Below are positions 10,099-25,715 of a stretch of 64,000 nucleotides of DNA, piece after piece. Both the position numbers and the translations under genes were made by a program. The notes beneath the pieces are model-generated. The model did not search any database, was not told the origin of the DNA, and worked only from the letters and a program-made list of their open reading frames with translations. This DNA comes from Algimonas arctica (lineage in GTDB: Bacteria; Pseudomonadota; Alphaproteobacteria; Caulobacterales; Maricaulaceae), in assembly GCF_014652695.1 (NCBI RefSeq), contig NZ_BMZH01000001.1, forward strand, positions 62,001 to 126,000. The letters are read 5' to 3'. How positions within the stretch are numbered: position 1 is the stretch's first letter; each line of letters opens with the position of its first letter.

Positions 10099-11847
10099 AT
10101 GACCGAGCCGACGCCCATTGCTCGCAACATCCCCCTTAGGCATGGTGATTTCGCGACTCTTAGCGAAGCCTTGGACTATGCTGCGACTGGTGATACTGGA
10201 TTTAACTACTTTGACGGGAAGGGGCGCTTGCGCACCAGCCTCCCCTATTCTGAGTTGCGAGAGCAAGCGATGGATGTCGCCAAGCGGCTCGTCGGTTTTG
10301 CGCCGAAAAACTCTCGTATTGGTTTGGCCGCCGTCTCAACCCCCGAATTCGCTATTCTGTTTTGCGCTTGCCAATATGCGGGCTTGGTCCCGGCGCCGCT
10401 GCCCTTACCCGTAACCTTGGGGGGGCGCTCATCTTATGAGCGTCAGCTTGAGCGGATGGCGGATACGGGTGACTTCTTTGCCCTCTTTGCGCCGGCCTCG
10501 ATGGAACCGATCATGAGCTCGGCTCTGAACGACACCGCGACACCAGTCTATACGTTTGAAGCCGTCCGAGCGCTGCCCAAAGGCGATAGGCTCCGCCCCT
10601 TCGACGCGGATGACCTGTGCTATATTCAATATTCATCAGGATCGACATCGTCTCCCAAAGGGATTCTCGGGACCCAAGCGTCCGTGTCGGCCAATTGTCA
10701 TGCGATCACGAAATATGGTCTGCAGGTCAATGAAACGGACAGGGCGACGTCTTGGCTGCCGCTCTACCATGATATGGGACTGATCGGTTGTATGCTTGCG
10801 CCGCTTGTTTCGCAAATGTCTGTCGACTTTATGGATCCAACTGACTTCACGCGCCGCCCGGTGACGTGGCTCCAGTTGATTTCAGATCACAAGGGCACGC
10901 TGTCCTATTCCCCCACATTTGGCTACGAGCTGTGTGTGCGCCGCTGGCGTGAAGACCGCGAGCTGGATCTATCGAGCTGGCGCGGCGCAGGGATCGGCGG
11001 CGATATGGTGCGTCCAGAGCCGCTGACTGATTTTGCAGAGCTATTTGCGCCGATGGGCTTTAAGGAAAGTGCGTTTACACCGTCCTACGGCATGGCCGAA
11101 ACCACGTTGGCCGCGACTTTCGCGCCGCTGGGGCAGGGGTTGCTGAAACATACAATTGATATGCGCCGTTACGAGACCTCGTCCGATGCCGTGACGGCGA
11201 CAGACCTGACGCCAAAAGCGGATCGTCGGACATTTGTCGCCTGCGGTGTCAAATTGCCAGATCATGACGTTGAAGTGCGCGACGAAGATAACGCCGTTTT
11301 GGGCGAAGACCATATCGGTCGGATTTGCTTAAAGGGACCGTCCCTATCGCCGGGCTATTTCCGCAACAGCCAAGCGACGGAAGCCGCATTTTCACGCGAT
11401 GGTTGGCTCGATACAGGGGACTTGGGCTATTGGCACGGTGGCCAGTTGATCGTGACGGGGCGCTATAAAGACCTTATCCTCTATCATGGCCGCAATATTT
11501 GGCCCCAAGATATTGAATGGGCGGCACAAGCTGCGGCCCCGCATCGCTGTGGTCGGGCCTGCGCTTTCTCCGTCGGCGGAGCGGGCGATCAGAAAACGAT
11601 CATGTTGCTGCTTGAGTGCCGGACGCGGGATCGGAAACTACTCGCCGAAATTGAAGCCGCGGTCTCTGCCGCGATTCGTCTCGAAGTGGGTGTGCCCGTA
11701 CAACTCATGCTGGTTCCAAAATCGACCATGATTATTACCTCATCAGGTAAGCTGTCGCGCGCGCGCGTGAAGCAAAAATACCTCGATGGCGGCATCATCG
11801 ATTTACAGACACCAACACAACTCCGCGCTGTTGAAACGGCGGGTTAG
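10099..11847 (+). CDS. Fatty acyl-AMP ligase / acyl-ACP synthetase of sphingolipid synthesis
   Basis: This member of the ANL adenylating superfamily activates a fatty acid with ATP and should pass it to a carrier protein. The 582-residue product has the A3 loop YSSGSTSSPKG (178-188), WLPLYHDMGLIGC as in fatty-acyl-AMP ligases, YGMAETT, DTGDLGYW and GRYKDLILYHGRNIWPQDIE. I chose the ATG of MTEPTPIARN after AGAGAG. It is first in a row with a stand-alone ACP and serine palmitoyltransferase, as for the acyl-ACP synthetase next to acp and spt in Caulobacter crescentus (CCNA_01223). It most likely loads the neighbouring ACP with the acyl chain that Spt condenses with serine; that last step is inference. 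Confidence 0.85.
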   Translation: MTEPTPIARNIPLRHGDFATLSEALDYAATGDTGFNYFDGKGRLRTSLPYSELREQAMDVAKRLVGFAPKNSRIGLAAVSTPEFAILFCACQYAGLVPAPLPLPVTLGGRSSYERQLERMADTGDFFALFAPASMEPIMSSALNDTATPVYTFEAVRALPKGDRLRPFDADDLCYIQYSSGSTSSPKGILGTQASVSANCHAITKYGLQVNETDRATSWLPLYHDMGLIGCMLAPLVSQMSVDFMDPTDFTRRPVTWLQLISDHKGTLSYSPTFGYELCVRRWREDRELDLSSWRGAGIGGDMVRPEPLTDFAELFAPMGFKESAFTPSYGMAETTLAATFAPLGQGLLKHTIDMRRYETSSDAVTATDLTPKADRRTFVACGVKLPDHDVEVRDEDNAVLGEDHIGRICLKGPSLSPGYFRNSQATEAAFSRDGWLDTGDLGYWHGGQLIVTGRYKDLILYHGRNIWPQDIEWAAQAAAPHRCGRACAFSVGGAGDQKTIMLLLECRTRDRKLLAEIEAAVSAAIRLEVGVPVQLMLVPKSTMIITSSGKLSRARVKQKYLDGGIIDLQTPTQLRAVETAG

Positions 11848-11953
11848 CCGTCACACTTGCACGTTAGGGGTGGTGAATGGGTGGCTAGACGCCCAGCTAT
11901 CAGCTTGGTAACGGCGCGGCTTGAAACGTATGGCCACTGTTGAAAGGGCCCGC

Positions 11954-12199
11954 ATGCCGACTGATGAGCAAATATTTGATAAAATATGCGAGCTGCTCAA
12001 GCCGTATAATGTCAAAAACAAGCCAATCCTACGGGCGTCAGGCATTATGTCCGACCTTGAAGTTGATTCCACAGCGGTTTTCGACCTGATTATGGAATTG
12101 GAAGATCACTACGATATTTCGATTCCGATGGAAGTCATTAGTGACGTCAAAACGGTCGGTGAATTGGTGAATGCTATTCAGGACTTATTGAACTCATGA
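11954..12199 (+). CDS. Dedicated acyl carrier protein for sphingolipid synthesis
   Basis: A short acyl carrier protein of 81 residues from the ATG of MPTDEQIF, which follows AAAGGG by five bases; longer starts at 11921 or 11930 are possible. The phosphopantetheine serine is S39 in the motif EVDSTAVFDLIMELED, with the usual acidic helix after it. It overlaps the start of spt by four bases (ATGA). An ACP in this place (AcpR in C. crescentus) delivers the acyl thioester to Spt in place of acyl-CoA. It is not the housekeeping AcpP, which normally sits with fab genes. Confidence 0.88.
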   Translation: MPTDEQIFDKICELLKPYNVKNKPILRASGIMSDLEVDSTAVFDLIMELEDHYDISIPMEVISDVKTVGELVNAIQDLLNS

Positions 12200-13476
12200 G
12201 TGGACCCAAAAGCACTGCGGATGGCGAGAAAGTCGCCGCCTCCGGCCTATCGATTTTCAGCAAATATGACCCGCTTAAGCAACGTGTCGATGTCGTGAAA
12301 AAGCTCGGCGTCGATCCGTTTGATATGACGTTTGATGATATAATGAGCGCCACTCGCGGGCGCATTGGCAACCGCGAAATCATCCTGGCGGGCACAAATA
12401 ATTATCTTGGACTCACCTTTGATCCGTCGACGCGTGCATCCGCTAAAGACGCGATTGATCGTCACGGGACTGGCACCACAGGCTCACGCATTGCCAATGG
12501 CACATATGTCGAACATGAACAGTTAGAGCGCGATTTAGCCGCGCATCTCGGCAAGCCGTCCTGCATCGTCTTCACGACAGGCTACGTCACAAATTTGGCC
12601 GCGATGGCCGGATTGGCGGGTCCGAATGATGTGATCTTTATCGACGCGGATGCGCATGCCTGTATCATTGACGGGACGCGCTTGGCGGGAACAACGACCG
12701 TCCGCTTTCGCCATAATAATCCCGCGGATTTGGACAAACGCCTCGCGCGGCAGAAAATCCCCGAAGGCGGCCATGCGTTGGTCGTGATTGAAGGGCTCTA
12801 TTCCATGTTTGGCGACATTGCGCCGATCGATGAATTTGTTGCCGTCGCGCATAAGCACGGCGCCTATCTCTATGTGGATGAAGCCCATAGTTACGGTGTC
12901 TTTGGTGAGACAGGGGCTGGGATCGCTGAAGAGCAAGGTGTTCTGGATAAAATCGATTTCTACTCTGGCACATTTTCCAAAAGCCTCGCGTCGGTCGGCG
13001 GCTTTTGTGCGTCGCGCCATCCTGAATTTGAACTGCTGCGCAAGGTTATGCGCCCTTATATGTTCACCGCCTCTGCAGCTCCGTCCAACATCTGCGCGGC
13101 ACAGGCGGCGCTAGATGCGATTAAAACGCGCCCTGAGTTGCGTCACAATATTATGGCCCGCGCCGCACAATTGCATGCGGGACTTAGCGATATGGGCTTC
13201 GAGCTTTGCGCGCCCGCCAGCCCTGTGATTGCGGTACGCCGTGATAATGAGGTGCAGGCCGCGATGGAATGGAATTGGCTGTTACAAGAAGGCGTTTACG
13301 TCAATTTGGCCGTGCCGCCCGGAACACCTGAAAGCTCAAGTCTACTGCGGATTTCCGTCTCAGCTGCGCACACGGAAGAGGACGTCAACGCGATCCTCAG
13401 CCGTTTTAAAGCGCTTAAAGACAATGGCGATGACATCATCGCGGAAATGATGCGCCGGATGCAAGCGTCTGCATAA
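12196..13476 (+). CDS. spt: Serine palmitoyltransferase
   Basis: This PLP-dependent alpha-oxoamine synthase condenses serine with an acyl thioester to 3-ketosphinganine, the committing step of sphingolipid synthesis. The 426-residue protein has the PLP lysine K262 in SGTFSKSLAS, D228 and H231 in VDEAHSYG, and H154 in DADAHACIIDG. GTGTTGSR (91-98) is the substrate-binding segment common to the family. The N-terminus DPLKQRVDVVKKLGVDPFD is typical of bacterial Spt rather than of the relatives KBL, BioF or HemA. It is translationally coupled to the ACP gene. The convergent gene ends 24 bases away, with a short CTAGGG/CCCTAG stem (13487-13503) between them. Confidence 0.92.
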   Translation: MSGPKSTADGEKVAASGLSIFSKYDPLKQRVDVVKKLGVDPFDMTFDDIMSATRGRIGNREIILAGTNNYLGLTFDPSTRASAKDAIDRHGTGTTGSRIANGTYVEHEQLERDLAAHLGKPSCIVFTTGYVTNLAAMAGLAGPNDVIFIDADAHACIIDGTRLAGTTTVRFRHNNPADLDKRLARQKIPEGGHALVVIEGLYSMFGDIAPIDEFVAVAHKHGAYLYVDEAHSYGVFGETGAGIAEEQGVLDKIDFYSGTFSKSLASVGGFCASRHPEFELLRKVMRPYMFTASAAPSNICAAQAALDAIKTRPELRHNIMARAAQLHAGLSDMGFELCAPASPVIAVRRDNEVQAAMEWNWLLQEGVYVNLAVPPGTPESSSLLRISVSAAHTEEDVNAILSRFKALKDNGDDIIAEMMRRMQASA

Positions 13477-13499
13477 AGGCTCCTGTCTAGGGGGCTACC

Positions 13500-14444
13500 C
13501 TAGCGAAACGCGCCGCGTCGCCAGAGTTTCCATCCTAGGACGGGCGACCAGAGAACGGGGTGTTTACGTTGCGCCTTTGTGACCTCGAGCGACACGCCAG
13601 AGTGTCGCTCTACTTTGCGCAGAACGTAATCAAGGCCGCCATCAAAAGTGGCGGCGCTGTTTAAAACGCGGATCGCGGCGATGGGTCTCCCGATCATACG
13701 GCGCATGAACCACCGAAATTTTGAGCCGTTTCCGGGGTAGGTTTCAACAGCATACTGTCCGTTATCGGACGCCCCGAAGAGCGTTTCGCTGACTGTGTCG
13801 TAACGGGCTTGGTAGCGGGCGACGATTTCCTGCGCGCGCCCGTCGTCACTTTCGGGACGCAGTTCCGTGCGGTAACTCTCATAAAAGGCGCGACCCCAGA
13901 ATTCAGGCGCCGTTGCAGGCGCGTCAAACAGTGGCGCGGTCTCACGCGCAAGTTTTCGCACGGCCGCGACGCGGGCTTGTAAAATTCGGTCTTCAATCGC
14001 GGGGTTAGATGCATCCAACAACGCACAAGGCTGGCTGAACCGGCCCCACACTTGACTGAGAAAACTATCGGAACAGCGGCGTTCAAACTCGTCTAAAGTG
14101 ATGATCGAATATTTGCAGGTCGATAAGACGCCGTCATTCTCTTGTTCAAGATAATAGACAGCGGGCGGGATGAGGCGGTTCGTTAGGGCTCTCCATCGCC
14201 CCGATAGTGTCGAGCCATGCGTCTTACGGTAGCTGTCGACGAGCACATAGAAGTCGAGCATTTTTCCCGCATCGTCCAGATCGCGCAAACTGGATCCGTA
14301 ATAGACAAAACCGAGTACCCGTCCAGAGTGGCGCGTCCGAATGGCGTTCATCACCGCGTGAACGCGCGCAGGGGGATCAAGCTGTTCAGATCGGATCAAG
14401 TCCAGCAGCTGGTCCGATTTTGCGCCCGTATTTTTGCCGGTCAT
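13500..14444 (-). CDS. TAM41-like nucleotidyltransferase, putative lipid cytidylyltransferase
   Basis: A 314-residue protein with YGSS (49-52) followed by DFYVLVD (64-70), the nucleotidyltransferase-fold metal-site pattern seen in the TAM41 family of CTP:phosphatidate cytidylyltransferases. The later PPAVYYLEQ segment also suits that family. Its start overlaps the stop of the lipid kinase by four bases (ATGA), so the two are made together. From that pairing I infer that it activates the phosphorylated sphingolipid or phosphatidic acid with CTP. Caulobacter has a comparable set of genes beside spt for ceramide phosphoglycerate. The fold call is moderate; the substrate is open. Confidence 0.55.
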   Translation of the reverse strand: MTGKNTGAKSDQLLDLIRSEQLDPPARVHAVMNAIRTRHSGRVLGFVYYGSSLRDLDDAGKMLDFYVLVDSYRKTHGSTLSGRWRALTNRLIPPAVYYLEQENDGVLSTCKYSIITLDEFERRCSDSFLSQVWGRFSQPCALLDASNPAIEDRILQARVAAVRKLARETAPLFDAPATAPEFWGRAFYESYRTELRPESDDGRAQEIVARYQARYDTVSETLFGASDNGQYAVETYPGNGSKFRWFMRRMIGRPIAAIRVLNSAATFDGGLDYVLRKVERHSGVSLEVTKAQRKHPVLWSPVLGWKLWRRGAFR

Positions 14445-15346
14445 CGCCGGATCGTGACTGGTCGGCTGGCGGATATCCGGAACTTGTTTCCGGGCAGATT
14501 TAACGGTTCACCATCCAGCATCACAGGACCAGAATAGGCGAATTCCGCCGTGTCTGTATTCCAGCTATAAAAGCCATCGGGACGGCGATCTTTATCTTTG
14601 AAACCGACCCAAACCTCAGCCAGGTGGCGATAAAGCTTTGAGCACCCCCCTTCGACATAAGTCAGACGAAGATCGCCGTCTTCATCGCCCCAAAACGGGT
14701 CCAAACCGAGCGCGACAGAGGGAAGGGTTGTTGCAATCGTGCCCAGATGTGGCCCCGTATGCACGACCCCGTTAATCGTGAGTGTGCAATCGGTGGCGGG
14801 CATGACGCTATCTCGTTCCGCGGTTACGGCCTTGACGATCCCGCCGACAACGGCTGCCGAGCCGCCAATGCCGCGTGTGTGGAGTTCGTTTTTCGCAAAG
14901 TCCGTCACCATCGGCAGGGCCCCGGTGGAGAAGAGAAAACCGTATTGATCGGGAACGCCGTCGCACGACAGGCGGATCATGCGTGTTTGAAGCGCTTTTG
15001 GGTCGTTGTGGATGGTCTTTAATCCGGATCGGCCTACGCGTTTCATACCAATGATTTTGGCGATTTGGTTTGTCATGCCGCCGGACGCGATGGCGAAATC
15101 CGGGATAGTGTCGGTATCGCCGACTTGTCGCATGACTTCGCTCATGACGCATTGAACTGTGCCGTCTCCGCCTTCGATGACGATGAGGTCAGAGGTGCTG
15201 AGTGCAGCTTCAACTTGGCTGGGCAGAGCTTCGAATAAGGCGAGATCAAAGACGCGCGCGCCGTGCTCATCCGCATGCGTGGCAAGGCGAGAGCCTTTTT
15301 TGCCGACGCGCTCTGAATGCGGGTTGATGAATAAGGACGCGGTCAT
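14441..15346 (-). CDS. Diacylglycerol-kinase-family lipid kinase, probable ceramide kinase
   Basis: A 301-residue DAGK-catalytic-domain protein. GGDGT (59-63) is the ATP-binding signature, and ASGGMTNQIAK (90-100) replaces the usual G-T-G-N-D loop. I chose the ATG of MTASLFINPHS, which fits the family N-terminus ('NP' motif); the frame is open upstream into lptG but not family-like. The C. crescentus homologue in the spt cluster, CpgB, is a characterised ceramide kinase, so phosphorylation of ceramide or the long-chain base is the best guess. It follows lptG by seven bases and overlaps the TAM41-like gene, giving the order lptF-lptG-kinase-nucleotidyltransferase. Confidence 0.72.
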   Translation of the reverse strand: MTASLFINPHSERVGKKGSRLATHADEHGARVFDLALFEALPSQVEAALSTSDLIVIEGGDGTVQCVMSEVMRQVGDTDTIPDFAIASGGMTNQIAKIIGMKRVGRSGLKTIHNDPKALQTRMIRLSCDGVPDQYGFLFSTGALPMVTDFAKNELHTRGIGGSAAVVGGIVKAVTAERDSVMPATDCTLTINGVVHTGPHLGTIATTLPSVALGLDPFWGDEDGDLRLTYVEGGCSKLYRHLAEVWVGFKDKDRRPDGFYSWNTDTAEFAYSGPVMLDGEPLNLPGNKFRISASRPVTIRR

Positions 15347-15353
15347 AGGGCGG

Positions 15354-16433
15354 CTATAGCGCCTCAGTGCGCGTGAGAAGAAATGCTGAAAGCAGCCCGA
15401 AGGCGAGCAATGGCATCGCGATGGCCGGACCGACAGAAAGGCCGCCCGATGCTGCAAATGTGGCCATAGCCCCGTCAATAATCAGAAACACGAAGCCAAG
15501 CGTAATGCCTAAAACAAGGGTTTTATCACCTGTGTCCTCCCGCCCTGTGCGCTGCATCATCGCGGCACAGGCCATGAGCAGAATAAGAGCGGCGAGGGGG
15601 CGAGTGAGACGGTGCGCGTGCCAGAAGGCGTAGGCGAAGGCCGGTTTGGCCCCGCTATTGCCGGGTTTCATGAAGTCCCGCATTTCCGAAAGCGATAAAT
15701 CACGGGGCTCAGCTGCGAGGCGAGCAATGGATGTTGGGGTCTGCGAGGTCGTCCACGTTGCATTGCCGTTGATTCGCGTGGCTTCGCGCGGTTCGCCGTT
15801 TGAGCCTTTCACTTCGAGACGGCGAACGCCCTGCAGCGTCCATCCATCCCCAGCGTAAGTGCCTTTATCCGCCCAAATAATCGAGTCGACTTCTCCGAGT
15901 TCGTTTCGTTCAAAAATCTGAATTTCGCCGAGTGTTTCGTAGGAGACGCGTTCTGTCGCGCGAATGATGGCCCCATTGTCCTCGAGCCAAAGCGGGTTAT
16001 CGCGGGTGATGTTCTTTATTTTATACTCACCAATTCCCCACGCCTGCAGAGCGCGCACGGCAGGGGCCATCGTATAATCAATAAAGGTAATCGACAGGAT
16101 AGACGCGCCGAGCACGACAGGGGTCAGAAGGAGCACTTGCCGCGTCGCGCTAATCCCGAAGCCGAGCAGGGCGACGAGCTCATGCTGTCGGATCAATTTC
16201 ACATAGGTCAGTAAGATCGCAACGACGAGAGTGAAAACAAAAATACGGTCAAAGATGACGGGCGCACGTAGCGCCATATATTTGAATGTACCTTTAAATC
16301 CTTCGCCGCTCGCGACAATGTCTGCGCCGTTGGCCAGACTATCGAGCAAACCGATAAGCACGAGGAATCCGAACACAACCATCAACCAGGTGAAGAGAAA
16401 GGCCTTGGAGAGATAGACTGCGAATTTAAGCAC
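15354..16433 (-). CDS. lptG: LptG-family permease subunit in the sphingolipid locus
   Basis: A 359-residue YjgP/YjgQ-family protein: about three membrane helices, a periplasmic beta-jellyroll-like domain (roughly residues 130-260) and three C-terminal helices. In the Lpt machine LptF and LptG are the inner-membrane subunits that pull lipopolysaccharide out for LptB2. It overlaps the downstream end of lptF by eight bases. The pair lies between sphingolipid genes, whereas alphaproteobacterial lptFG often precede lptD-surA. It may therefore be a paralogue that exports sphingolipid, or simply the LPS pair moved. The sequence alone does not separate these. Confidence 0.82.
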   Translation of the reverse strand: MLKFAVYLSKAFLFTWLMVVFGFLVLIGLLDSLANGADIVASGEGFKGTFKYMALRAPVIFDRIFVFTLVVAILLTYVKLIRQHELVALLGFGISATRQVLLLTPVVLGASILSITFIDYTMAPAVRALQAWGIGEYKIKNITRDNPLWLEDNGAIIRATERVSYETLGEIQIFERNELGEVDSIIWADKGTYAGDGWTLQGVRRLEVKGSNGEPREATRINGNATWTTSQTPTSIARLAAEPRDLSLSEMRDFMKPGNSGAKPAFAYAFWHAHRLTRPLAALILLMACAAMMQRTGREDTGDKTLVLGITLGFVFLIIDGAMATFAASGGLSVGPAIAMPLLAFGLLSAFLLTRTEAL

Positions 16434-17694
16434 GCGGGACCTCTGTCTCGCCGCGTAAACGACGACGTGTTTTTTGGATAAAGGTTCGAACTTGCCCCTG
16501 CGCGTGACTGACCCACTGCGCGAACGATGTCAGCGGAGGTTGGCCCATTTTAAAGGCACTCTTCCAGAACACAAAGGCGGCAAAGATGGTGAGGAAGGTC
16601 ATTAACCCCCATATTCCGACCCATGGCGGCAATTTCCCGGACGCGCCAAGCGATTGCGCAAATTCGAGCGCTTTCTCGAAGGAAACCACGAAAACCACGC
16701 CGACAAATATGCCCGCAGAAGACGGATTTCGCCCATAGTTCAGACCAAAGGGCACTGCGATGAAGGGGATTAGGAAGAGCAGCATCGTGCGCGCGATACG
16801 GCGGTGCAAGGTCGCGTTATTCGTATTGCGATCAATTTCTGTCCGTTGATCGCCGCGGCGGTTTTCAAACAGCTCGGTCGAAGTGAGTTCGCGCTCATCA
16901 TTGCCGCGAATCCGAAATGGGGTCGGGTTTGATACACCCGCAATCGAAATTCCGTCAAAGCTGCCATTGTCTGATAGGCGCGAATTGTCCGTGACTTGAT
17001 AGCCTTGACCGGCGCCGAGTTGCAGGACCGGCGCGCCGCTTTTCTCACGGATAATTAATTCGCCTTCATTGGCTGTTGTTAGGCGAAACCCGGTCTCGAC
17101 CCCCTCGGTATCAAGGATCGCGTCATAGATAAAAATGGGCCCGATTCCGGCGTTAGGCTTGGCCGTGCCGCCAAAATAAGTTCGAGACCCAACGGTCGTG
17201 AACGTGCCTTCGCGCAAGGCGGCCGTAAAGGACGTCTGTTTGACGGAATTCTCAACCGTCCGATACCGATACCGCCCGAGCGGCTGTAACCAGCCCTCAA
17301 TCAAGATCGACCCAACGGCCAAAATCGCCGCGACAACAAGAAACGGCTTTGTCATATGGGTCAAGGATACGCCCGCGCCCAAGGCCGCCGTTAATTCAGA
17401 GGAGCGCGAAAAGCGGTCAACGGTAATGATCGTGCCCAGCATCAAGGCCATCGGCACGGCAATGCCAAGATAATAAGGCAAGAGCGAAACAATCATATTG
17501 GACGCATCAGATGCAGGTTTTGTCGACGTCGTGACAACCTCAAAAATACGTAGCAGGCGTTCTAACAGGAGGACGCAACAGGCAAAAACGATCAACCCGC
17601 CAATCGCAGACATTGCTCTTTTGAAAAGATATGTGTTTAGACGACCCAAGAGATTCCTGCGATGCACACTTTCATAAGTCTCATTCCGTGCCAT
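16426..17694 (-). CDS. lptF: LptF-family permease subunit in the sphingolipid locus
   Basis: A 422-residue LptF/YjgP protein. An N-terminal helix follows LNTYLFKRAMSAIGG, helices two and three surround ALMLGTIITVDRFSRSSEL (the amphipathic region typical of the family), then come a large periplasmic domain and three C-terminal helices (LLFLIPFIAVPFGLNYGRNP...). I chose ATG 17694; an upstream GTG at 17709 is possible and neither has a strong ribosome site. A 37-residue basic tail ends the protein. It opens the four-gene minus-strand block and is divergent from the DUF2141 gene, so the 66-base gap must hold both promoters. Confidence 0.82.
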   Translation of the reverse strand: MARNETYESVHRRNLLGRLNTYLFKRAMSAIGGLIVFACCVLLLERLLRIFEVVTTSTKPASDASNMIVSLLPYYLGIAVPMALMLGTIITVDRFSRSSELTAALGAGVSLTHMTKPFLVVAAILAVGSILIEGWLQPLGRYRYRTVENSVKQTSFTAALREGTFTTVGSRTYFGGTAKPNAGIGPIFIYDAILDTEGVETGFRLTTANEGELIIREKSGAPVLQLGAGQGYQVTDNSRLSDNGSFDGISIAGVSNPTPFRIRGNDERELTSTELFENRRGDQRTEIDRNTNNATLHRRIARTMLLFLIPFIAVPFGLNYGRNPSSAGIFVGVVFVVSFEKALEFAQSLGASGKLPPWVGIWGLMTFLTIFAAFVFWKSAFKMGQPPLTSFAQWVSHAQGQVRTFIQKTRRRLRGETEVPRA

Positions 17695-17760
17695 ATTCGG
17701 ACGGCACACGACATGAAATGGTTCATGCCGTGCTCATTTAACTGGGCCTATTGAAAAGCC

Positions 17761-18324: not shown

Positions 18325-18378
18325 CAGGCTCTGCCGTCATGGCAGCCCCTTTATTGAGTAACCAAAGGGTCCCTTCGC

Positions 18379-19518
18379 ATGGCGCGTGTCGCATTTGATA
18401 TCAGCGGATCGGATCAAGCCGATAGCGATTTTCTCGCTCTACCCTACACCCTGTACGCGGGTGAGCCTGAGTGGCGTGCGCCGCTACGATTTGAGCGCAA
18501 AGCCCAACTCAGCGCTAAAAACCCAACACGCGCCGCAATAACAGCCCGTTTTTTTGTGGCGCGCCGCGCCGGGCAAGCGGTCGGGCGTATCGCCGCCTTT
18601 ATCAATACAGCGCATGATCAGGTTCATGGAGGGGCTGTTGCTTTCTTTGGTTATTTTGATTGTGAAGACGACCCGGCGCTTTCCGACGGTCTCTTGAACG
18701 CGGCGAAAGACTGGGCGCGTTCGCAGGGCCGGACGCATTTGCGCGGTCCGGCGATGTGGAGTGTGAATGAGGAAGTCGGCCTGTTGGTTGACGGTTTTGA
18801 ACATCCGCCCGCCGTCATGATGCCCTATGGCCATCCGCACCAAGTCGACGCGATCACGCGAAACGGATTTGAGAAATCGACAGACCTCTATGCCTATCTC
18901 GCGGATCTTACGGACGGCGCACCGTCAGGGCGATTGGTTAGCGCTTTGCGCGGCAAAGCCGAAACGGACTCCGGATTGACGTGGCGGTCTATGAATACGC
19001 GTGACTTCATGGGCGATGTCCGGATGGCGCGAGAAATATTCAATGACGCTTGGTCGGATAATTGGGGTTATGTCCCGTTCTCTGAAGAACAATTTAGCCA
19101 TATGGCCAAAGAGATGAAGCCGATCATGTTTAAAACAGGGTTTCAAATTGGGTTTGTCGACGGTGAACCCGCTGCGTTTATTTGGATGATTCCGGATCTG
19201 AACGAGGTCGTGAAAGGGTTGAATGGCCGATTGCTACCCTTTGGCTGGGCGCAACTTCTTTGGCGTATCAAAGCAAAAAAAGTCACCAAAGGTCGCGTGC
19301 CGTTGATGGGACTCAAACGCAAGTTTCACAAAGGTCGTCGCGGCGTTGCCTTGACGACTCAGATTTGTTCAGACGCTTTCGACGCCGGACAAGCACAAGG
19401 TTTTACCCAATGCGAGTTGTCTTGGATATTGGAAGGCAATCGCAGCATGACGAGTATTTGCGAATTGGTGGGGGCCGAACCCTATAAAACATACCGTATG
19501 GTCGAGGCTGAACTGTGA
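18379..19518 (+). CDS. GNAT-fold bacterial ceramide synthase-like N-acyltransferase
   Basis: A 379-residue GNAT-type protein. Recognisable parts are the N-terminal LPYTLYAGEPEWRAPLR, the long LRGPAMWSVNEEVGLLVDGF segment, MPYGHPHQ, and the C-terminal GNAT domain ending in ELSWILEGNRSMTSICELVGAEPYKTYRM. The length and these landmarks fit the bacterial ceramide synthase of C. crescentus (bCerS, CCNA_01212), which N-acylates the sphingoid base. I therefore assign it that step: it joins a second acyl chain to the product of Spt. The next gene starts with a GTG overlapping its stop. The call rests on family memory plus location. Confidence 0.75.
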   Translation: MARVAFDISGSDQADSDFLALPYTLYAGEPEWRAPLRFERKAQLSAKNPTRAAITARFFVARRAGQAVGRIAAFINTAHDQVHGGAVAFFGYFDCEDDPALSDGLLNAAKDWARSQGRTHLRGPAMWSVNEEVGLLVDGFEHPPAVMMPYGHPHQVDAITRNGFEKSTDLYAYLADLTDGAPSGRLVSALRGKAETDSGLTWRSMNTRDFMGDVRMAREIFNDAWSDNWGYVPFSEEQFSHMAKEMKPIMFKTGFQIGFVDGEPAAFIWMIPDLNEVVKGLNGRLLPFGWAQLLWRIKAKKVTKGRVPLMGLKRKFHKGRRGVALTTQICSDAFDAGQAQGFTQCELSWILEGNRSMTSICELVGAEPYKTYRMVEAEL

Positions 19519-20255
19519 GTCTTCGCGCGATAATTCTGGCCGGACAGCGTCCCGGCCCGGATGCCCTCTGCGATCATGCCGGTGTGGCGTTCAAAGCCGA
19601 CATTCCGATCGGCGGTATTGCAATGGTTGAACGCGTCGCGACGGCGCTTCGTAACGCCGGAATTGATGCGCCGTTTGCGCTGTCGGGCTATCCAGAGCCA
19701 AAAACCGGGTTTGTGATCGTTGAGGGGGGATGCGGTCCCGCTGATAGCGCGCTAATGGCGGCCAGCGACGGGGCGTTTCCGGTCTTGCTCACGACGTGCG
19801 ATCATGCCTTGCTGACATCGGATATGGTGGAAAATTTCGTCGCTCAGTCGCGGGCCTCGGGCGCGGATTTCACAGCCGGATTGGCTACTGAGGCGGTTAT
19901 TCAGGCCGCTTACCCGACGACGAAACGGACCTATTTGCGGTTCGCCGATCATGCGGTGAGTGGCTGCAACCTGTTTTACCTCGCCAATGAAAATGCACTC
20001 GAAGCGATCCGTTTTTGGCGCGTCGCCCAAGACTTTCGCAAGGACCCGTTGAAATTGGCCCGCACGGTAGGCTTGGGCCTTGGTGTGAAATATGCGTCGG
20101 GCCGGCTGACACTGGGCGGCGCGTTTGAAGCGGTCTCGAAAAAGCTGGGCTTGTCTGCCGCGCCTGTTCTATTGCCCTTCGCGGAAGCCGCCATTGATGT
20201 CGACAAGCCATCTGATTTAACCCTTGTCGAAGCGATATTGGCGGCGCGCGACTGA
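19515..20255 (+). CDS. MobA-like NTP transferase of the sphingolipid locus
   Basis: A 246-residue Rossmann-type nucleotidyltransferase. It starts SLRAIILAGQRPGPDALCDH, an altered form of the LAGGxSxRMGxxK nucleotide loop. It also has VLLTTCDHALLTSDMV (the metal Asp in a TTCDHALL context), SGCNLFYL and the C-terminal IDVDKPSDLTLVE that is common in this superfamily. Such enzymes make NDP-sugars or NDP-alcohols. It starts with a GTG overlapping the ceramide synthase stop and is followed by the flippase with a TGATG overlap. I infer a headgroup-activating role; the nucleotide and acceptor cannot be read from the sequence. Confidence 0.7.
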   Translation: MSLRAIILAGQRPGPDALCDHAGVAFKADIPIGGIAMVERVATALRNAGIDAPFALSGYPEPKTGFVIVEGGCGPADSALMAASDGAFPVLLTTCDHALLTSDMVENFVAQSRASGADFTAGLATEAVIQAAYPTTKRTYLRFADHAVSGCNLFYLANENALEAIRFWRVAQDFRKDPLKLARTVGLGLGVKYASGRLTLGGAFEAVSKKLGLSAAPVLLPFAEAAIDVDKPSDLTLVEAILAARD

Positions 20256-21622
20256 TGGATCTTACGATTCAATGCACGCGTACGGTTGGAAACCGAATCG
20301 CCTCGAATGCTGGGCTATTGTTTGGCGCGAAGGCGGTGGGGGCTGTTCTGGGCGTGATTACGCTGATCGTTACAGCGCAGGCCCTGGATAGTCAGGTCGA
20401 ATTAGGGACCGTAATTTTCCTACATGCCTATATGATTTTCTTTGCCGAAATGATGACATTCCAACCGTGGCAATCCATCATTCGATTTGGGTCTGATGAT
20501 GTCGAAGCCAATGATGGGGCGTCTTTTGCGCGACTCGTCAAATTTGGCGCCATTCTGGATGCCGTCGCCGTTAGTTTATCTTATGTCGCGGCGATTGCCA
20601 TGTTTGGTGTTTTCGTTGCTTTTGTGAACGCTTACCCAGATTTTTGGGCAGGCGATGAACAGATCGACCCGTCCAAGCTTTTCTGGCTCGTTGTTAGTTA
20701 TTGCTCGGTCGTTTTGTTCCAGCAAACGGGCATGAGCACGGGTGTCCTGCGCCTGTTCGATAAATTTACCGGATTGGCCGCCGCCTGGTTGGTTATGCCG
20801 ACGGTCCGCCTGATCGGTGTCTTAATCGCGGCCCATCAAGGGTGGGGTATGATGGGATTTATCGCTGTTTGGTATTTTGGGGCGCTCGTTCGAAACTTTG
20901 TCGTAGTTGGCTTAGGGCTGACCGAACTGGCCCGGCGCGGGATCCTTAAGCCCGCCATCAAAGCAAAAATAGATTTCTGGCGCCCAAGGACTGGCCTTTG
21001 GTCATTTGCGACCAAAGCCTATGTGGATAGCTCTTTGGCGGCGGGCTTTTCTCACTTACCCGTTCTCTTGGTCATGGTTGTGTTTGGGCCCGTATTTGTC
21101 GCGGTTTACAAATTCGCGGAGGAAATCGCGAAGCTTCTCTCAGAGGGTGTGAAGCTGCTTGATCAAGTCATCTACCCGGAACTGGCGCGGATTGTTGCGG
21201 CCGGGAAGGGCGGACAAATTCTACGCTTAGTCAGTAAAGCCAGTGCCGTGGCTTTGGCTGCAGGCGTTGTTTTATCGGCCTTGGCCTATGTCTTTGCGCC
21301 GCCACTCGTCGACCATTTTCTGGGGGACGGATATGAGCTCGTCCCGAGTTTGGCTGTCTTGCTCGTTTTAGGGGCCGCTATTTTTGCGGCCGTTGCGCCG
21401 CTCTACCCGGTCTTTTATGCGGTCGGAAAACCCGAGCGCGCGATCTATGCTCGCGCGGCCGGGATCGTGGCTTATATTACAAGCTTTATTCTTCTGACCC
21501 GGTGGTTGGGCGAAATAGGCACAGGTTGGGCATGGATCGTCGGCTATTCGGTCGCGCTGATCGTTGTCATCGTTCTCGTCTTGAAAACCTTGTCTGCCTT
21601 TGAGGATGATCCGATCTCATGA
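20255..21622 (+). CDS. Wzx/MATE-like lipid flippase
   Basis: A 455-residue integral membrane protein with about 12-14 hydrophobic segments over its whole length and the look of polysaccharide-biosynthesis flippases (FGAKAVGAVLGVITLIVTAQ at the start, MMTFQPWQSIIRFG, and a repeated second half). Proteins of this group turn lipid-linked sugars or lipids across the inner membrane. Its start overlaps the NTP transferase stop and its stop overlaps the next ATG, so it is cotranslated with the headgroup genes. It may flip the finished or partly built sphingolipid; this is inference. Confidence 0.75.
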   Translation: MDLTIQCTRTVGNRIASNAGLLFGAKAVGAVLGVITLIVTAQALDSQVELGTVIFLHAYMIFFAEMMTFQPWQSIIRFGSDDVEANDGASFARLVKFGAILDAVAVSLSYVAAIAMFGVFVAFVNAYPDFWAGDEQIDPSKLFWLVVSYCSVVLFQQTGMSTGVLRLFDKFTGLAAAWLVMPTVRLIGVLIAAHQGWGMMGFIAVWYFGALVRNFVVVGLGLTELARRGILKPAIKAKIDFWRPRTGLWSFATKAYVDSSLAAGFSHLPVLLVMVVFGPVFVAVYKFAEEIAKLLSEGVKLLDQVIYPELARIVAAGKGGQILRLVSKASAVALAAGVVLSALAYVFAPPLVDHFLGDGYELVPSLAVLLVLGAAIFAAVAPLYPVFYAVGKPERAIYARAAGIVAYITSFILLTRWLGEIGTGWAWIVGYSVALIVVIVLVLKTLSAFEDDPIS

Positions 21623-22314
21623 TTGCTGTTTTCGACTTGGATTACACGTTGACGCAGCGTGGGACATGGGGCCGTTTTGTATGGCGAAGTGTCCGGACAC
21701 GACCTTGGTTTTGGGGGCCGTTACTGTTTGAGACGATCCGAGATCAAATTGAATATAAGGCCGGTCGTCGGCCTCGTGGTGCGGTCAAGCAGTCCATGAT
21801 GCGGTGGAGCCTTATGCGGCGAACGCGACCCGACCTAGAAAAGATGGCTGGCGCTTTTGCTGATGCGGAAATCCGCTCAGGTCTGCGTCCCGGCGGACGC
21901 GCGGCGCTGGCTTATCATCGCGATCGTGGCGACCATATTTTGATCGCGTCAGCGGGTGTGGATTTGATCGTTGGTCCCATTGCCGAGCGCCTTAAAGTGG
22001 ATGGGGTGGTTTGCACGCAAATGGCGTGGAAAGCGGACCGTCTTGAAGATCGGTTTGCGTCGGAAAATTGTTACGGAGACGCAAAGCGCGCGGCTGTCAC
22101 CTCTTACCTGATCGCGAATAATCTTACCGGGCCCACCGTATTTTACACCGATAGTAGAGCGGATTTCGCGCTTCTACCGATCATGGACCAAACGATCGTT
22201 GTTGATCCAAAGGCCAAGACGCGGGCAGACGCGCAAAATTTGAGCCTGCCGATCCAACATTGGGCGAAAAGTGAGGGCGGGTTTGAGCCTGCCCCCCAGA
22301 TGACGAAATCGTGA
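21619..22314 (+). CDS. HAD-IB family phosphatase
   Basis: A 231-residue HAD hydrolase of the phosphoserine-phosphatase-like subclass. The catalytic motif FDLDYTLT has nucleophile D6 and acid/base D8. Motif II is at HILIASAGVDLIVGPIAERL and motif III/IV at FYTDSRADFALL. The insert between motifs I and II is helical and basic (RRPRGAVKQSMMRWSLMRRTR). The start overlaps the flippase stop (ATGA). Enzymes of this type can remove phosphate from glycerophosphate-type lipid intermediates, which would suit a pathway making a phosphodiester headgroup. The exact substrate is unknown. Confidence 0.75.
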   Translation: MIAVFDLDYTLTQRGTWGRFVWRSVRTRPWFWGPLLFETIRDQIEYKAGRRPRGAVKQSMMRWSLMRRTRPDLEKMAGAFADAEIRSGLRPGGRAALAYHRDRGDHILIASAGVDLIVGPIAERLKVDGVVCTQMAWKADRLEDRFASENCYGDAKRAAVTSYLIANNLTGPTVFYTDSRADFALLPIMDQTIVVDPKAKTRADAQNLSLPIQHWAKSEGGFEPAPQMTKS

Positions 22315-22375
22315 CAGATCTGCAACCCTTTGTGACTATCAGTCGTTTCCATGCTGGGATTAAGGAGTGATAGAA

Positions 22376-23599
22376 ATGCCAAATAAACTCCATAAATATG
22401 ATGGTACGCGGCTGAAGGTTGCGTTTCTTTACAATCATGAGGTCCCGCATCAGGTAGCTCATACAGCGCCTGTGCTGCGTGAAATGTTGATCCGGCACGC
22501 CGATATCGATGTGAGCGTTCTGACTTCGACAGCGGAGCAAAAAGACATCGTCTTGTCCGGGCTGGGCCCCGCCCTCGCGGCTCGCACGAATTTCATCGAT
22601 TTAGACACGACGAAATCTGATCGGGGTATACGCCGCGCCGCGAATTCCGTGGCCCCCGCGCGCCGCATTTCCGTGCTGCAGGAAAACCTAGAAACATTGG
22701 CGAAGTTCGATGTTTTTGTCGTTCCAGAGAGCACGTCTTTGATGATGAAGACGCAGTTTGGGTTGGATCATTTGAAATTTATTCTTACCCATCACGGCGC
22801 GGGGGATCGTGCGGTGACAGAAAAAGTCTCGATCCGTGATTTCGATTTTGTTCTGGTGCCGGGTGAAAAGCTCGAAAAACGGCATAAAGAACATGGTTTG
22901 ATCCGGGACGGGGACTATGCCGTCACGGGGTATCCCAAATTTGATTTTGTCGCGCATGGCGGCGAACCCAAACTGTTCGATAATGACAATCCGGTTGTTT
23001 TATATAATCCGCATTTCGATCCGCACCTGTCGAGTTGGTACACGATGGGTGAGGCGGTTTTGGACGCGTTTGCCGCGAACCCTGATCTGAACTTAATCTT
23101 CGCGCCGCATATCATGATTTATCAGCGCAAGATTCATACGTCCGTTGAATTCAAACGTGTTCGGCGCCGCAAGCCGCTGCCAAAGCGGTTCTTGGATTTG
23201 CCCAATATTCACATTGATCTAGGCAGCCCGCGCAGCGTCGACATGACTTACACGCGCGCCGCCGATATTTATCTCGGTGATGTCTCGTCACAGATTTATG
23301 AGTTCTTGCATGAGCGTCGGCCGGTGATTTTCCTGAATAGTCACGATGCGGACTGGCAGGGTAATCCGCTCTATTTGAATTGGACAACCGGACCCGTGTT
23401 GACGGACGTGAGTGATCTGATCGAAACGGTTCATGGGGCAACAGATGCGCATGCTGATTACCTCCCGGCGCAGAACCTAGCCTTTGAAGATACCTTCGAT
23501 TTGACGGACGGAAAGTCGTCCGTGAAAGCCGCGGACGCTGTGGCTGAATGGTTACGGCGTGACGTGCTGAGCGAGCCTGAATTGCTGGCCGCACAATAA
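22376..23599 (+). CDS. CDP-glycerol:glycerophosphotransferase-like enzyme
   Basis: A 407-residue GT-B-type protein like the CDP-glycerol:poly(glycerophosphate) glycerophosphotransferases of teichoic acid synthesis. Landmarks are ILTHHGAGDRA (N-domain), VTGYPKFDFV, VVLYNPHFDPHLSSW, NLIFAPHIMIY and the nucleotide-site region TRAADIYLGDVSSQIYEFL followed by RRPVIFLNSHDADW. I chose ATG 22376, eight bases after AAGGAG. It would transfer a phospho-alcohol unit from a CDP donor. Beside ceramide kinase and nucleotidyltransferase genes, that suggests attaching phosphoglycerol or phosphoglycerate to ceramide phosphate. That step is inference, and no teichoic acid is expected in this bacterium. Confidence 0.75.
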   Translation: MPNKLHKYDGTRLKVAFLYNHEVPHQVAHTAPVLREMLIRHADIDVSVLTSTAEQKDIVLSGLGPALAARTNFIDLDTTKSDRGIRRAANSVAPARRISVLQENLETLAKFDVFVVPESTSLMMKTQFGLDHLKFILTHHGAGDRAVTEKVSIRDFDFVLVPGEKLEKRHKEHGLIRDGDYAVTGYPKFDFVAHGGEPKLFDNDNPVVLYNPHFDPHLSSWYTMGEAVLDAFAANPDLNLIFAPHIMIYQRKIHTSVEFKRVRRRKPLPKRFLDLPNIHIDLGSPRSVDMTYTRAADIYLGDVSSQIYEFLHERRPVIFLNSHDADWQGNPLYLNWTTGPVLTDVSDLIETVHGATDAHADYLPAQNLAFEDTFDLTDGKSSVKAADAVAEWLRRDVLSEPELLAAQ

Positions 23600-23606
23600 T
23601 TCTTGA

Positions 23607-23623
23607 AACAAATGTGATTTGTT
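23607..23623. promoter_or_regulatory. Perfect 7-bp-arm palindrome before the cyclopropane synthase gene
   Basis: AACAAAT (23607-23613) and ATTTGTT (23617-23623) surround GTG. The AT-rich symmetry, 30 bases before the ATG, suits a protein-binding site better than a terminator. Confidence 0.35.
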
Positions 23624-23652
23624 GAAGTTCCTAGGGTGCTTATGCTGCACCT

Positions 23653-24876
23653 ATGAAACTACTTGCCCCGCTAATGCATCGTTTCGTTTCGGTTGGAAGA
23701 CTGACAATTATTGATCATACCGGCACCCGACATGATTTCGGTCCTGGTGGGGCGCCCTCCGCGACGGTCCGTGTGACAGACCCACGTCTCTACCGGAAAC
23801 TGTTTCTCAACCCGGAACTCCATGCGGGCGAAGCCTATATGGACGGAACTCTGATCATTGAAGACGGCGGAATTCGCGGCTTGCTAGAGGTGTTCGCGCA
23901 TAATCGCGATGGGCTTCGCAAAGGGCCAATCCGTAAAGGTATCAAGACGATTCAAAAGACATTTCGAAAGACTATGCAGCGGAATAAACGCAACGCCTCA
24001 ATAAAAAATGTTGAGGCGCATTATGATCTTTCCAACGACCTTTACCGCCTCTTCCTTGATTCCGACCTGCAATATAGTTGCGCCTATTGGCCGACCGACA
24101 TCAAGCCATTGGAAGAGATTACCTTAGAAGAGGCGCAGTTGGCGAAGAAACGCCATATTGCGGCGAAGCTCCGACTGGAACCCGGTCAGCGCGTGCTGGA
24201 TATTGGGTGTGGCTGGGGCGGAATGGCGATCCATTTGGCTAAAAACCATGGCGTCAATGTTGTGGGTGTTACCCTCTCTCAAGATCAATTTGCTTTAGCG
24301 CGCCAACGCGTCGCAGCGGCGGGTCTGCAAGATAAGGTCGAGATCAGATTGCAGGATTACCGCGATTGTAAAGGGCCCTATGATCGGGTTGTCTCGGTTG
24401 GCATGTTCGAACATGTGGGGGTTGGGAATTTCGAAGAATATTTCACGAAAATACGCGACGTGTTGACGGAGGATGGTTGTGCCTTGGTGCATTCTATCGG
24501 TCGTAAAGGTGGGCCTGGGGCGACAGGAAAATGGATTCGAAAATATATCTTCCCTGGGGGGTATAGTCCAGCTCTGTCAGAGACGTTTGCTGCCATCGAA
24601 AAGGCGGGGCTTTGGGTCACGGATATGGAAATTCTTCGCCTGCATTATGCGTGGACCCTCGCGGAATGGGAGAGGCGCTTTCAGGCGAACCGAGACGCAG
24701 TCGTGACCATGAAAGATGAGCGTTTTGCCCGCATGTGGGAGTTCTATCTGGTCATTTCAGAATTTAGCTTCCTCTACGGGAAGCATATGAATTTCCAGAT
24801 TCAATTGGCCAAATCTGTCGGTGCGGTACCGGTGACACGGAACTCCATGATGGACGGGCCGGATCTACTGGCATAA
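23653..24876 (+). CDS. cfa: Cyclopropane-fatty-acyl-phospholipid synthase family protein
   Basis: This SAM-dependent enzyme adds a methylene across the double bond of acyl chains in membrane lipids. The 407-residue protein has the N-terminal lipid-binding part with YMDGTLIIEDG, the signature HYDLSNDLY (123-131), DLQYSCAYWP, SAM motif I VLDIGCGWGG (181-190), VSVGMFEHVG and the C-terminal WEFYLVISEFSFLYGKHMNFQ. Its position at the end of the sphingolipid block, with its own possible promoter, hints that it may modify sphingolipid acyl chains. Ordinary phospholipids are equally possible substrates. Confidence 0.9.
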   Translation: MKLLAPLMHRFVSVGRLTIIDHTGTRHDFGPGGAPSATVRVTDPRLYRKLFLNPELHAGEAYMDGTLIIEDGGIRGLLEVFAHNRDGLRKGPIRKGIKTIQKTFRKTMQRNKRNASIKNVEAHYDLSNDLYRLFLDSDLQYSCAYWPTDIKPLEEITLEEAQLAKKRHIAAKLRLEPGQRVLDIGCGWGGMAIHLAKNHGVNVVGVTLSQDQFALARQRVAAAGLQDKVEIRLQDYRDCKGPYDRVVSVGMFEHVGVGNFEEYFTKIRDVLTEDGCALVHSIGRKGGPGATGKWIRKYIFPGGYSPALSETFAAIEKAGLWVTDMEILRLHYAWTLAEWERRFQANRDAVVTMKDERFARMWEFYLVISEFSFLYGKHMNFQIQLAKSVGAVPVTRNSMMDGPDLLA

Positions 24877-24887
24877 AGGCCTGCGCC

Positions 24888-25715
24888 ATGACTGACCCAG
24901 CCTCAATCGACCCAGCGGAAAAGCCCGCAAACCTCAGCAATCCTCGCCGGGCCTTCATCAAGAAGACTGGTAAGAAGCTCGTGCGCAAGATTGCAGGCTT
25001 CCAGTCGGCGCAATCCAAAGTGCCTGATACGCCCAAGCTGGATAACGCGCATTTCCCGTGGCTGTCTGAATTTACGGATAATTGGGAAGCCATTCGCAAG
25101 GAGGCGCAAGCCGTACTCGCGTTTCGCGACGATATTCCCGCGTTCCACGAATTGTCGCCGGATCAGTACCGTCTTTCCACCGCGAAGAATTGGAAGACCT
25201 ACATCCTCTATGGTTTCGGCCAACGCATGGAGACGAATACCCAGCTCACGCCCGTCACAGCGGATATTTTATCGCGCGTGCCGCATATTCAAACAGCGAT
25301 GTTTTCCATCCTCGCGCCCGGCTATCATATCCCGGCGCATAAGGGTGTGACCAAGGGCATTTTGAGAAGTCACTTGGGCTTGATTATTCCGAAGGACCGC
25401 GAGCAATGCCGTATCCGTGTCGATGACACGATCACGGCCTGGAAAGAGGGCGAAATTTTTGTCTTCGATGACACGTATGAACATGAAGTCTGGAATGAGA
25501 CTGACGAAGAGCGTGTGATCTTGTTGTTTGATTTCGATCGCCCGATGAAACTGCCCGGACGGGTGCTCAACAAGACCTTTCTTCAAATCATGAAGTTTAC
25601 GGCCTTCTATCAGGACCCGAAGAAAAACTTGGCGTCGGCGGAAGAGAAAATGGAAGCGGCCATCCGCCAAGCCGACGCGAATATTGAAGCTATGAGCGAT
25701 CCTGCTGACACATAA
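24888..25715 (+). CDS. Aspartyl/asparaginyl beta-hydroxylase-like lipid hydroxylase
   Basis: A 275-residue Fe(II)/2-oxoglutarate dioxygenase of the Asp/Asn beta-hydroxylase family, which includes LpxO of lipid A 2-hydroxylation. Visible motifs are YHIPAHKG (H151), RSHLGLIIP (R160, H162), DDTYEHEVWNET (H199) and RVILLFDFDRP. A basic N-terminus (RRAFIKKTGKKLVRK) could dock on the membrane. It follows cfa by 11 bases and ends at a terminator, making it the last gene of the block. I infer hydroxylation of a sphingolipid or lipid A acyl chain; the locus favours the first. Confidence 0.78.
   Translation: MTDPASIDPAEKPANLSNPRRAFIKKTGKKLVRKIAGFQSAQSKVPDTPKLDNAHFPWLSEFTDNWEAIRKEAQAVLAFRDDIPAFHELSPDQYRLSTAKNWKTYILYGFGQRMETNTQLTPVTADILSRVPHIQTAMFSILAPGYHIPAHKGVTKGILRSHLGLIIPKDREQCRIRVDDTITAWKEGEIFVFDDTYEHEVWNETDEERVILLFDFDRPMKLPGRVLNKTFLQIMKFTAFYQDPKKNLASAEEKMEAAIRQADANIEAMSDPADT

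Follow-up and report, generated by a model that had tools for sequence, protein, structure and literature searches.

Gene content of the locus

Between positions 10099 and 25715 of the window, the 64,000-nucleotide stretch of Algimonas arctica DNA analysed here (G000:C1:62001-126000, from genome G000, a 99.98% complete draft of 3.25 Mb in 49 contigs), lie 15 genes that resemble the phosphosphingolipid cluster of Caulobacter crescentus. They form three runs: aasR-acpR-spt on the forward strand, lptF2-lptG2-cpgB-cpgC on the reverse strand, and a second forward run in which a DUF2141 gene and cerS are followed by genes for a nucleotidyltransferase (NTPt), a flippase, a HAD phosphatase, a PF04464 transferase (GPT), a cyclopropane fatty acid synthase (CMAS) and a hydroxylase. 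Adjacent genes within the cluster are spaced by -8 to 73 nt. This directly observed gene content includes every enzyme class named in an earlier sequence-only reading of the DNA, whose count of fourteen genes becomes fifteen, and whose two nucleotidyltransferases are the CpgC-like protein and the CofC/MobA-like one. An Rfam scan returned a tRNA as its sole match. The nearest named loci come from an uncultured Algimonas (L072) and from metagenome-assembled genomes of Hellea (L074-L076), in the family that the taxonomy of the tree tool calls Robiginitomaculaceae. The genes are listed below; comparison with Caulobacter was made through two loci of a Caulobacteraceae-like genome (L199 and L204 of G152) in place of C. 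crescentus sequences, and the percentages are identities to these loci.

10099..11847, + strand: aasR-like fatty acyl-AMP/ACP ligase (CC_1165 type); PF00501 1.5e-49, NCBIfam fatty acyl-AMP ligase 7e-205; 48% to L199
11921..12199, + strand: acpR-like acyl carrier protein; PF00550 5.6e-08; 50% over 48 residues to the L199 carrier protein between cerR and spt
12196..13476, + strand: spt, serine palmitoyltransferase; PF00155 4.8e-45; 47% to L199/L204
13500..14444, - strand: cpgC (CC_1161 type), Tam41-fold nucleotidyltransferase by predicted fold, predicted CTP:ceramide-1-phosphate cytidylyltransferase; 30% to L199/L204
14441..15352, - strand: cpgB, ceramide kinase type; PF00781 1.3e-08; 28% to the L199 kinase
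15354..16433, - strand: lptG2, second-copy Lpt permease; PF03739 1.6e-46; 25% to L199/L204
16426..17694, - strand: lptF2, second-copy Lpt permease; PF03739 1e-55; 27% to L199/L204
17761..18324, + strand: DUF2141 protein (CC_1157 position); PF09912 1.2e-20; 34% to the L199 DUF2141 protein
18379..19518, + strand: cerS, bCerS N-acyltransferase (CC_1154 type); 41% to L199
19515..20255, + strand: NTPt, CofC/MobA-like nucleotidyltransferase (CC_1153 position); PF12804 6.3e-09; 40% to L204
20255..21622, + strand: MOP-type flippase without a CpgA domain, proposed module member; 24%, E 7e-34, to the L199 flippase
21619..22314, + strand: HAD-IB phosphatase, proposed module member; PF12710 1.8e-26, TIGR01490 above its cut-off
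22367..23599, + strand: GPT, PF04464 CDP-glycerol-type transferase (cassette B, see below), proposed module member; PF04464 34.2 bits, above the gathering cut-off of 22.1; 37% to L199
23653..24876, + strand: CMAS, cyclopropane fatty acid synthase; PF02353 1.6e-94, NCBIfam 528.7 bits, below the equivalog cut-off of 600
24888..25715, + strand: predicted OlsC/LpxO-like lipid acyl 2-hydroxylase; PF05118 1.4e-52, OlsC model 3e-70

Most of these genes keep their order in named relatives, including L074, L075, L077, L080 and L087, so the arrangement is not due to chance. The gene spt was found in 51 of 99 genomes of the family at E<=1e-100, and cerS homologues in all 18 spt-positive genomes tried, the window's own included. 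The stretch from the Algimonas metagenome-assembled genome lacks aasR, acpR and spt and has an 856-aa reading frame at their place (L072:696-3266); the cluster of G012:C2 is split, with spt at 744 kb and cerS and cpgA at 186-190 kb; and in the single-contig genome G065 cerS lies in two overlapping frames (G065:C1:1613436-1614549), reflecting a frameshift or a sequencing error.

The joint presence of aasR, acpR and spt, together with bCerS, provides a Caulobacter-type ceramide core, and the CpgB kinase and CpgC of the CPG2 pathway are also present, as judged by comparison with L199. The order in L199/L204 is LptC, a PF04464-like gene, flippase, aasR, cerR, acpR, spt, cpgC, cpgB and a CDP-OH transferase, followed by one open reading frame (ORF), DUF2141, LptF/G, cerS and the CofC-like gene, which follows the description of CC_1168-CC_1153 in PMC11324152 (the published accounts are cited here from excerpts). 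Twelve of the fifteen window proteins match these loci, at identities from 24% (flippase) to 50% (acpR, over 48 residues), and the HAD phosphatase, CMAS and hydroxylase have no match among the L199/L204 ORFs compared. With this many genes matched in a CC_1168-CC_1153-like order, the kind of cluster is already known. We do not claim L199/L204 as C. crescentus, because no cpgD was recognised in L204 beyond the CofC-like gene.

The core departs from that of Caulobacter at one step. There, cerR, the gene for the 3-keto-ceramide reductase, sits between aasR and acpR, and its deletion causes oxidised ceramide to accumulate (PMC11087976). In the window the gap between aasR and acpR is only 73 nt, which leaves no room for cerR, and a relative's CerR used as query detected no cerR in the cluster or elsewhere in G000, within the reach of the single-query whole-genome searches of the draft on which all absences reported here rest. 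The Caulobacter-like core of the sequence-only reading is borne out in that the cluster is of Caulobacter type and directed to a ceramide phospholipid, and not as regards CerR; that reading had overlooked the lack of cerR, cpgA and cpgD in the cluster. The same kind of query found cerR in 44 of the 51 spt-positive genomes at E<=1e-25. The seven without it (G000, G025, G037, G055, G065, G091 and G098, of which G065 is a single contig) all belong to genus g1, where 3 of 10 genomes have the gene, and cerR is likewise absent at the Hellea locus L074. An spt tree was built from 27 of the 51 spt-positive genomes and five named loci, with G019 and G011 dropped for a stop codon in the match range and with L077, L078, L086 and L087 scored as cerR-positive from an unassigned 303-312 aa ORF in the gap. 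Its eight cerR-less rows fall into two groups, corresponding to two changes, and holding them together gave a p of 0.041 in the approximately unbiased test (p-AU), so that a single loss of cerR is only marginally rejected.

Candidate replacements for CerR were considered in G000. The best CerR match, the epimerase-family protein L160 (28%), was not accepted, as cerR-positive genomes contain matches of similar score, whose orthology to L160 was not tested. A Leu/Glu dehydrogenase gene upstream of aasR was rejected, as it is likewise a neighbour of aasR in the cerR-positive genome G083. The product of 40281-41237 is a generic short-chain dehydrogenase/reductase (SDR), encoded directly upstream of lipA and downstream of pyruvate dehydrogenase component genes; no link was found, and it is a possible but unsupported stand-in.

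The headgroup slot and the phylogeny of its genes

Between the HAD and tailoring genes, relatives of the window carry different gene sets. In cassette A, CpgA and the flippase form a fusion of about 830-850 aa (L074-L076, G055, G037, G083, G091 and G098), accompanied by a COG1213-like, cpgD-like cytidylyltransferase, which was confirmed by search in G055, G037, G083, G012 and G028 and by Pfam in L074; in L075, L076, G091 and G098 it was assigned by the length and location of the ORF. Single frames of about 834 aa that join a flippase to the CDP-alcohol phosphotransferase CpgA are seen at L041:12260-14767, L043:5482-7986 and L074:11835-14339; the fusion is a hint that flipping is linked to headgroup addition. 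Cassette B is the PF04464 transferase, found at this place in the window as well as in L072, G008 and G075. Cassette C, found at the examined loci of G065 and G025 (L033:14194-16082 and L034:14348-16164), pairs an ATP-grasp protein resembling D-Ala-D-Ala ligases with a second MobA-like transferase, and its protein families suggest an aminoacyl-type headgroup in these two genomes, the window's closest relatives found. In cassette D (L077, L078, L080 and L087) the slot contains no ORF. The window and the two closest relatives found have different genes in this slot and otherwise the same order. Free variation of neighbours, which the sequence-only reading took as speaking against its proposal, is thus seen at the transferase slot, and CMAS is patchy, being absent from the ORF lists of the G065, G008, G037 and G091 clusters, while the rest of the order is conserved.

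Both CpgA and CpgD are needed for CPG2 in C. crescentus (PMC11324152, PMC12275187). A search of G000 for cpgA gave no matches, and cpgA is present in 23 of the 51 spt-positive genomes at E<=1e-10. A relative's cpgD-like protein gave only partial matches in G000, over 73 residues (30.7 bits) and 61 residues (20 bits), and full-strength matches of 419-495 bits in 5 of 11 genomes searched. The 46 structure hits of the L074 cytidylyltransferase include, below the best one, 4jd0 (E 6e-6), which is the top structure hit named for CpgD (PMC12275187).

The phylogeny of the genes was compared after group B, the four cassette-B loci, had been set from gene content. Trees of cluster genes other than spt and GPT comprised 17 or 18 selected rows; G065 was left out of the cerS tree because of its two frames, the partial L076 was left out of the cpgC tree, and L078 replaced G001 in the hydroxylase tree. 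The B rows form one clade in the flippase tree (100/100), the HAD tree (96/96) and the 21-row GPT tree (window, L072, G008 and G075, 100/100), whereas the trees of cerS (p-AU 5e-52), cpgB (9e-60), cpgC (4e-8), NTPt (0.009) and the hydroxylase (4e-5) reject such a clade. In the latter five trees, the window and L072 instead group with the genomes that carry cassette C (in the cerS tree with G025 only). Identities show the same directly observed linkage, as the window flippase has 52-54% identity to its G008 and G075 counterparts and 45-46% to those of the nearest relatives, whereas for cpgB the values are 36-43% and 81-83%, respectively. Because flippase, HAD and GPT group by slot type and cerS, cpgB, cpgC, NTPt and the hydroxylase do not, we infer that flippase-HAD-transferase (20255-23599) was exchanged as a block between conserved flanks. 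The linked module trees, with the CpgA fusion of cassette A pointing the same way, further suggest a match between flippase and headgroup.

Relatives of the transferase also occur outside the slot. GPT at >=70% identity was found in 3 of the 51 spt-positive genomes, none of which has cpgA, and more distant copies (36-44%) in 8 of the 51, on contigs other than that of spt; three genomes (G132, G208 and G216) have two copies each. Examination of the neighbours of three distant copies (L208-L210, 10 proteins) allowed no conclusion; genes for metallo-beta-lactamase-fold proteins of different subtypes adjoin two of them (L209:7359-8243 and L210:7640-8368). In Azotobacter beijerinckii a 38% PF04464 transferase homologue adjoins cpgB-cpgC (L140:18416-20266). 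The scattered distant copies and the two-copy genomes are what would be expected if several module types had once existed together and been sorted among lineages by ancient paralogy or differential loss, with no exchange. This history appears unlikely to us, since each locus examined has one flippase per slot (flippases were searched at these loci and not genome-wide), the flanking hydroxylase follows another history, and none of these loci showed several complete modules next to one another.

Predicted pathway and alternative explanations

CpgC acquires a structural argument from its predicted fold. Its AlphaFold2 model (pLDDT 90.1) matches Tam41 structures with VIA Z values of 18.7 (7ecd), 15.0 and 14.8, the next row being 7.1; Foldseek gave a Tam41 match at 9.5e-8, and an hmmsearch profile reached mitochondrial Tam41 (6ig2) at E 5.3e-5. 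Residues Y49, G50, S51 and D64 are invariant in all 25 alignment rows. For CC_1161, an InterPro hint of a CDP-diacylglycerol synthase and an NDP-activated ceramide have been put forward (PMC11324152), and the mechanism of CpgC has been called yet unidentified (PMC12275187). The modelled fold is consistent with CpgC forming CDP-ceramide. Within open-licence PMC, CDP-ceramide and Tam41 do not occur in the seven papers listed, nor does glycerophosphotransferase in the 8 of 52 shown by a further search.

The export genes are tightly linked to spt at the level of genomes. G000 encodes four PF03739 proteins, the other pair at G000:C5:99529-101756. In a census of 30 genomes selected from the 99, with kinship among them (6 versus 8 genera), all 15 spt-positive genomes have at least four copies (14 with four, G045 with six) and all 15 spt-negative genomes have exactly two. 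This association supports, from gene counts, the second Lpt system already proposed (PMC11324152). No LptC2 is present among the 15 cluster proteins; no genome search for LptC was made.

For the hydroxylase, the OlsC model (236.3 bits) falls below its cut-off of 450, and LpxO (2e-40) also below its equivalog cut-off. Residues H151, D194, D195 and H199, presumably metal-binding, are invariant in 26 of 26 rows. Homologues at E<=1e-5 are present in 15 of 80 cerS-anchored named loci, seven of them outside the close relatives (L092, L095, L109, L117, L140, L146 and L147). Two OlsC/LpxO-like genes adjoin cpgC in Pseudomonas asuensis (L092:18282-19874) and in Stutzerimonas kunmingensis (L109:18278-19837). 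In open-licence PMC, LpxO in a sphingolipid context led to a single paper, the Agrobacterium review PMC3972451, which was also among the 10 of 1,441 matches shown for OlsC, the rest of those dealing with medicine.

In the pathway that we propose, AasR would load AcpR, Spt would convert acyl-AcpR and serine to 3-ketosphinganine, and bCerS would N-acylate the latter to 3-keto-ceramide, whose 3-keto group, without CerR, would be retained unless a reductase of unrelated origin, encoded elsewhere in the genome, acts on it. CpgB would phosphorylate the ceramide to the 1-phosphate, which CpgC and CTP would turn into CDP-ceramide. NTPt and GPT may then add a phospho-polyol or phospho-acid unit, with the HAD enzyme removing a phosphate, and the flippase-HAD-GPT module would complete the headgroup in place of CpgA and CpgD. 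Export in the direction of the outer membrane would fall to the module flippase and LptF2/G2, and the OlsC/LpxO-like hydroxylase and the cyclopropane synthase probably modify the acyl chains. The predicted product is an anionic ceramide phospholipid other than CPG2, and the cluster may make a different outer-membrane lipid. Overall, the explanation that we favour, at a probability of roughly 60%, is that the locus represents a form of the Caulobacter-type phosphosphingolipid cluster peculiar to this lineage, with no CerR and with an exchangeable three-gene headgroup module, whose product is not CPG2.

Several points weigh against this explanation. The PF04464 match is weak (34 bits), and the GPT model, built from only three sequences, has a pLDDT of 48.7 and is too poor to use; CpgC has no Pfam match at E<=0.1, and hence no Tam41 Pfam match; and the chemical steps, substrates and transport are assigned from family membership. 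Only four cassette-B loci are known. The HAD tree speaks against the competing arrangement, with G065 and G025, at no better than p 0.027. On its left side the block has a blurred boundary, since in the tree of NTPt, the gene just beyond it, the window groups with L072 and not with G065 and G025 (98/94). GPT and CpgA can occur together within the family, as 6 of the 8 genomes with a distant GPT also have cpgA, and the cassette-A pair is not always complete, G001 having an unfused cpgA and no strong cpgD-like match. An unrelated 3-keto reductase may be encoded elsewhere in the genome, and the enzyme that would make CPG from CDP-ceramide lacks a candidate; in Caulobacter, where CpgA is needed only for CPG2, the step from ceramide-1-phosphate to CPG is not known either (PMC11324152, PMC12275187).

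The locus could instead be an ordinary CPG/CPG2 cluster in which unrelated enzymes elsewhere replace cpgA, cpgD and cerR and the lipid is the same as in Caulobacter. The twelve genes with L199/L204 counterparts fit this account, as does the existence in G000 of the generic SDR and of L160, and CC_1167, which by its position in L199 would be of the PF04464 type, has a cofitness of 0.57 with spt, so that it may already act in the Caulobacter pathway, although the authors judged CC_1167 and CC_1157 probably unrelated (PMC11324152). We nevertheless consider it improbable: neither CpgA nor CpgD, both of which C. crescentus needs for CPG2, was found in G000, L160-like matches score similarly in cerR-positive genomes, and three different enzyme sets fill the slot within one genus. 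Least probable, and by some distance, is that the singly substituted ceramide (CPG) is the end product and the PF04464 protein acts elsewhere, for example on a cell-surface glycan sharing the flippase: MOP flippases serve polysaccharides, the PF04464 relative of L208 lies 1.7 kb from a Polysacc_synt flippase, L077, L080 and L087 keep the cluster with an empty slot, and L078 has a reduced cluster that lacks the flippase and LptF/G, but GPT stands in the cerS operon between the HAD and acyl-tailoring genes at 4 of 4 cassette-B loci, and flippase and HAD share its phylogeny.

Under the favoured explanation of an exchangeable module in a CerR-less cluster, the locus is an apparent natural exception for CerR, a reductase thought universal in the pathway. 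A broader generalization is possible, though we would put it forward only tentatively: the headgroup would be a swappable trait of this lineage, its flippase, phosphatase and transferase moving together into a fixed slot for which a single genus has at least three alternatives, and complex ceramide lipids would be made without CerR, possibly in the 3-keto form. If true, this would define a new class of bacterial 3-keto-ceramide phospholipid with a headgroup-matched flippase.

Comparison with known sphingolipid clusters and enzymes

The phosphosphingolipid region of C. crescentus comprises 17 genes, CC_1168-CC_1152 (PMC11324152). The window shares with it aasR, acpR, spt, cpgC, cpgB, lptF2/G2, cerS, the CofC-like gene and the flippase and, by position in L199, DUF2141 (CC_1157) and the PF04464 homologue (CC_1167), the latter at L199:2060-3322. 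Unlike that region, G000 has no detected cerR, cpgA or cpgD, and the window cluster contains the HAD phosphatase, the OlsC/LpxO-like hydroxylase and the cyclopropane synthase; in addition, the PF04464 copies of the window and of the Caulobacteraceae-like cluster belong to different clades. The modified and possibly undescribed anionic ceramide lipid of the sequence-only reading retains support in headgroup genes that predict a non-CPG2 product, and loses some of its novelty in that many of the genes counted there towards headgroup and export, namely those for the lipid kinase, CpgC, the CofC-like protein, the flippase and LptF2/G2 and, by position, DUF2141 and the PF04464 homologue, are already present in the Caulobacter region.

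CC_1166 has been proposed as a potential flippase (PMC11324152), and the L199 flippase (within L199:2812-4719) lies between the GPT homologue and aasR. Our trees tie this CC_1166-type family to the headgroup, so that a gene swap could put the proposed flippase role to the test. The clusters of Hyphomonas neptunium, with good orthologues of all genes but CC_1158, and of Azotobacter vinelandii and Pseudomonas luteola, with good orthologues of at least 13 of the 17 (PMC11324152), share homologues of CC_1168-CC_1152 genes with the window. A hydroxylase gene adjoins the A. vinelandii cluster (L146), and the excerpted account in PMC11324152 makes no mention of it.

At the level of single enzymes, CpgC resembles the Tam41 CDP-diacylglycerol synthases (6ig2, 6ig4 and 7ecd) in predicted fold and in its nucleotidyltransferase-like motif, and differs in its predicted lipid substrate, ceramide-1-phosphate, and in the lack of a Pfam-level match. 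The hydroxylase shares the PF05118 domain and conserved H/D/H residues with the OlsC/LpxO lipid 2-hydroxylases, but scores below both equivalog cut-offs and is encoded among sphingolipid genes. GPT is related through PF04464 to the TagB/TagF-type CDP-glycerol glycerophosphotransferases, and its family conserves the blocks HGAGDR, FAPH and GDVSSQ, which we take to be linked to TagF catalysis; unlike TagB/TagF, it is encoded in a sphingolipid cluster, and its predicted acceptor is a ceramide phospholipid.

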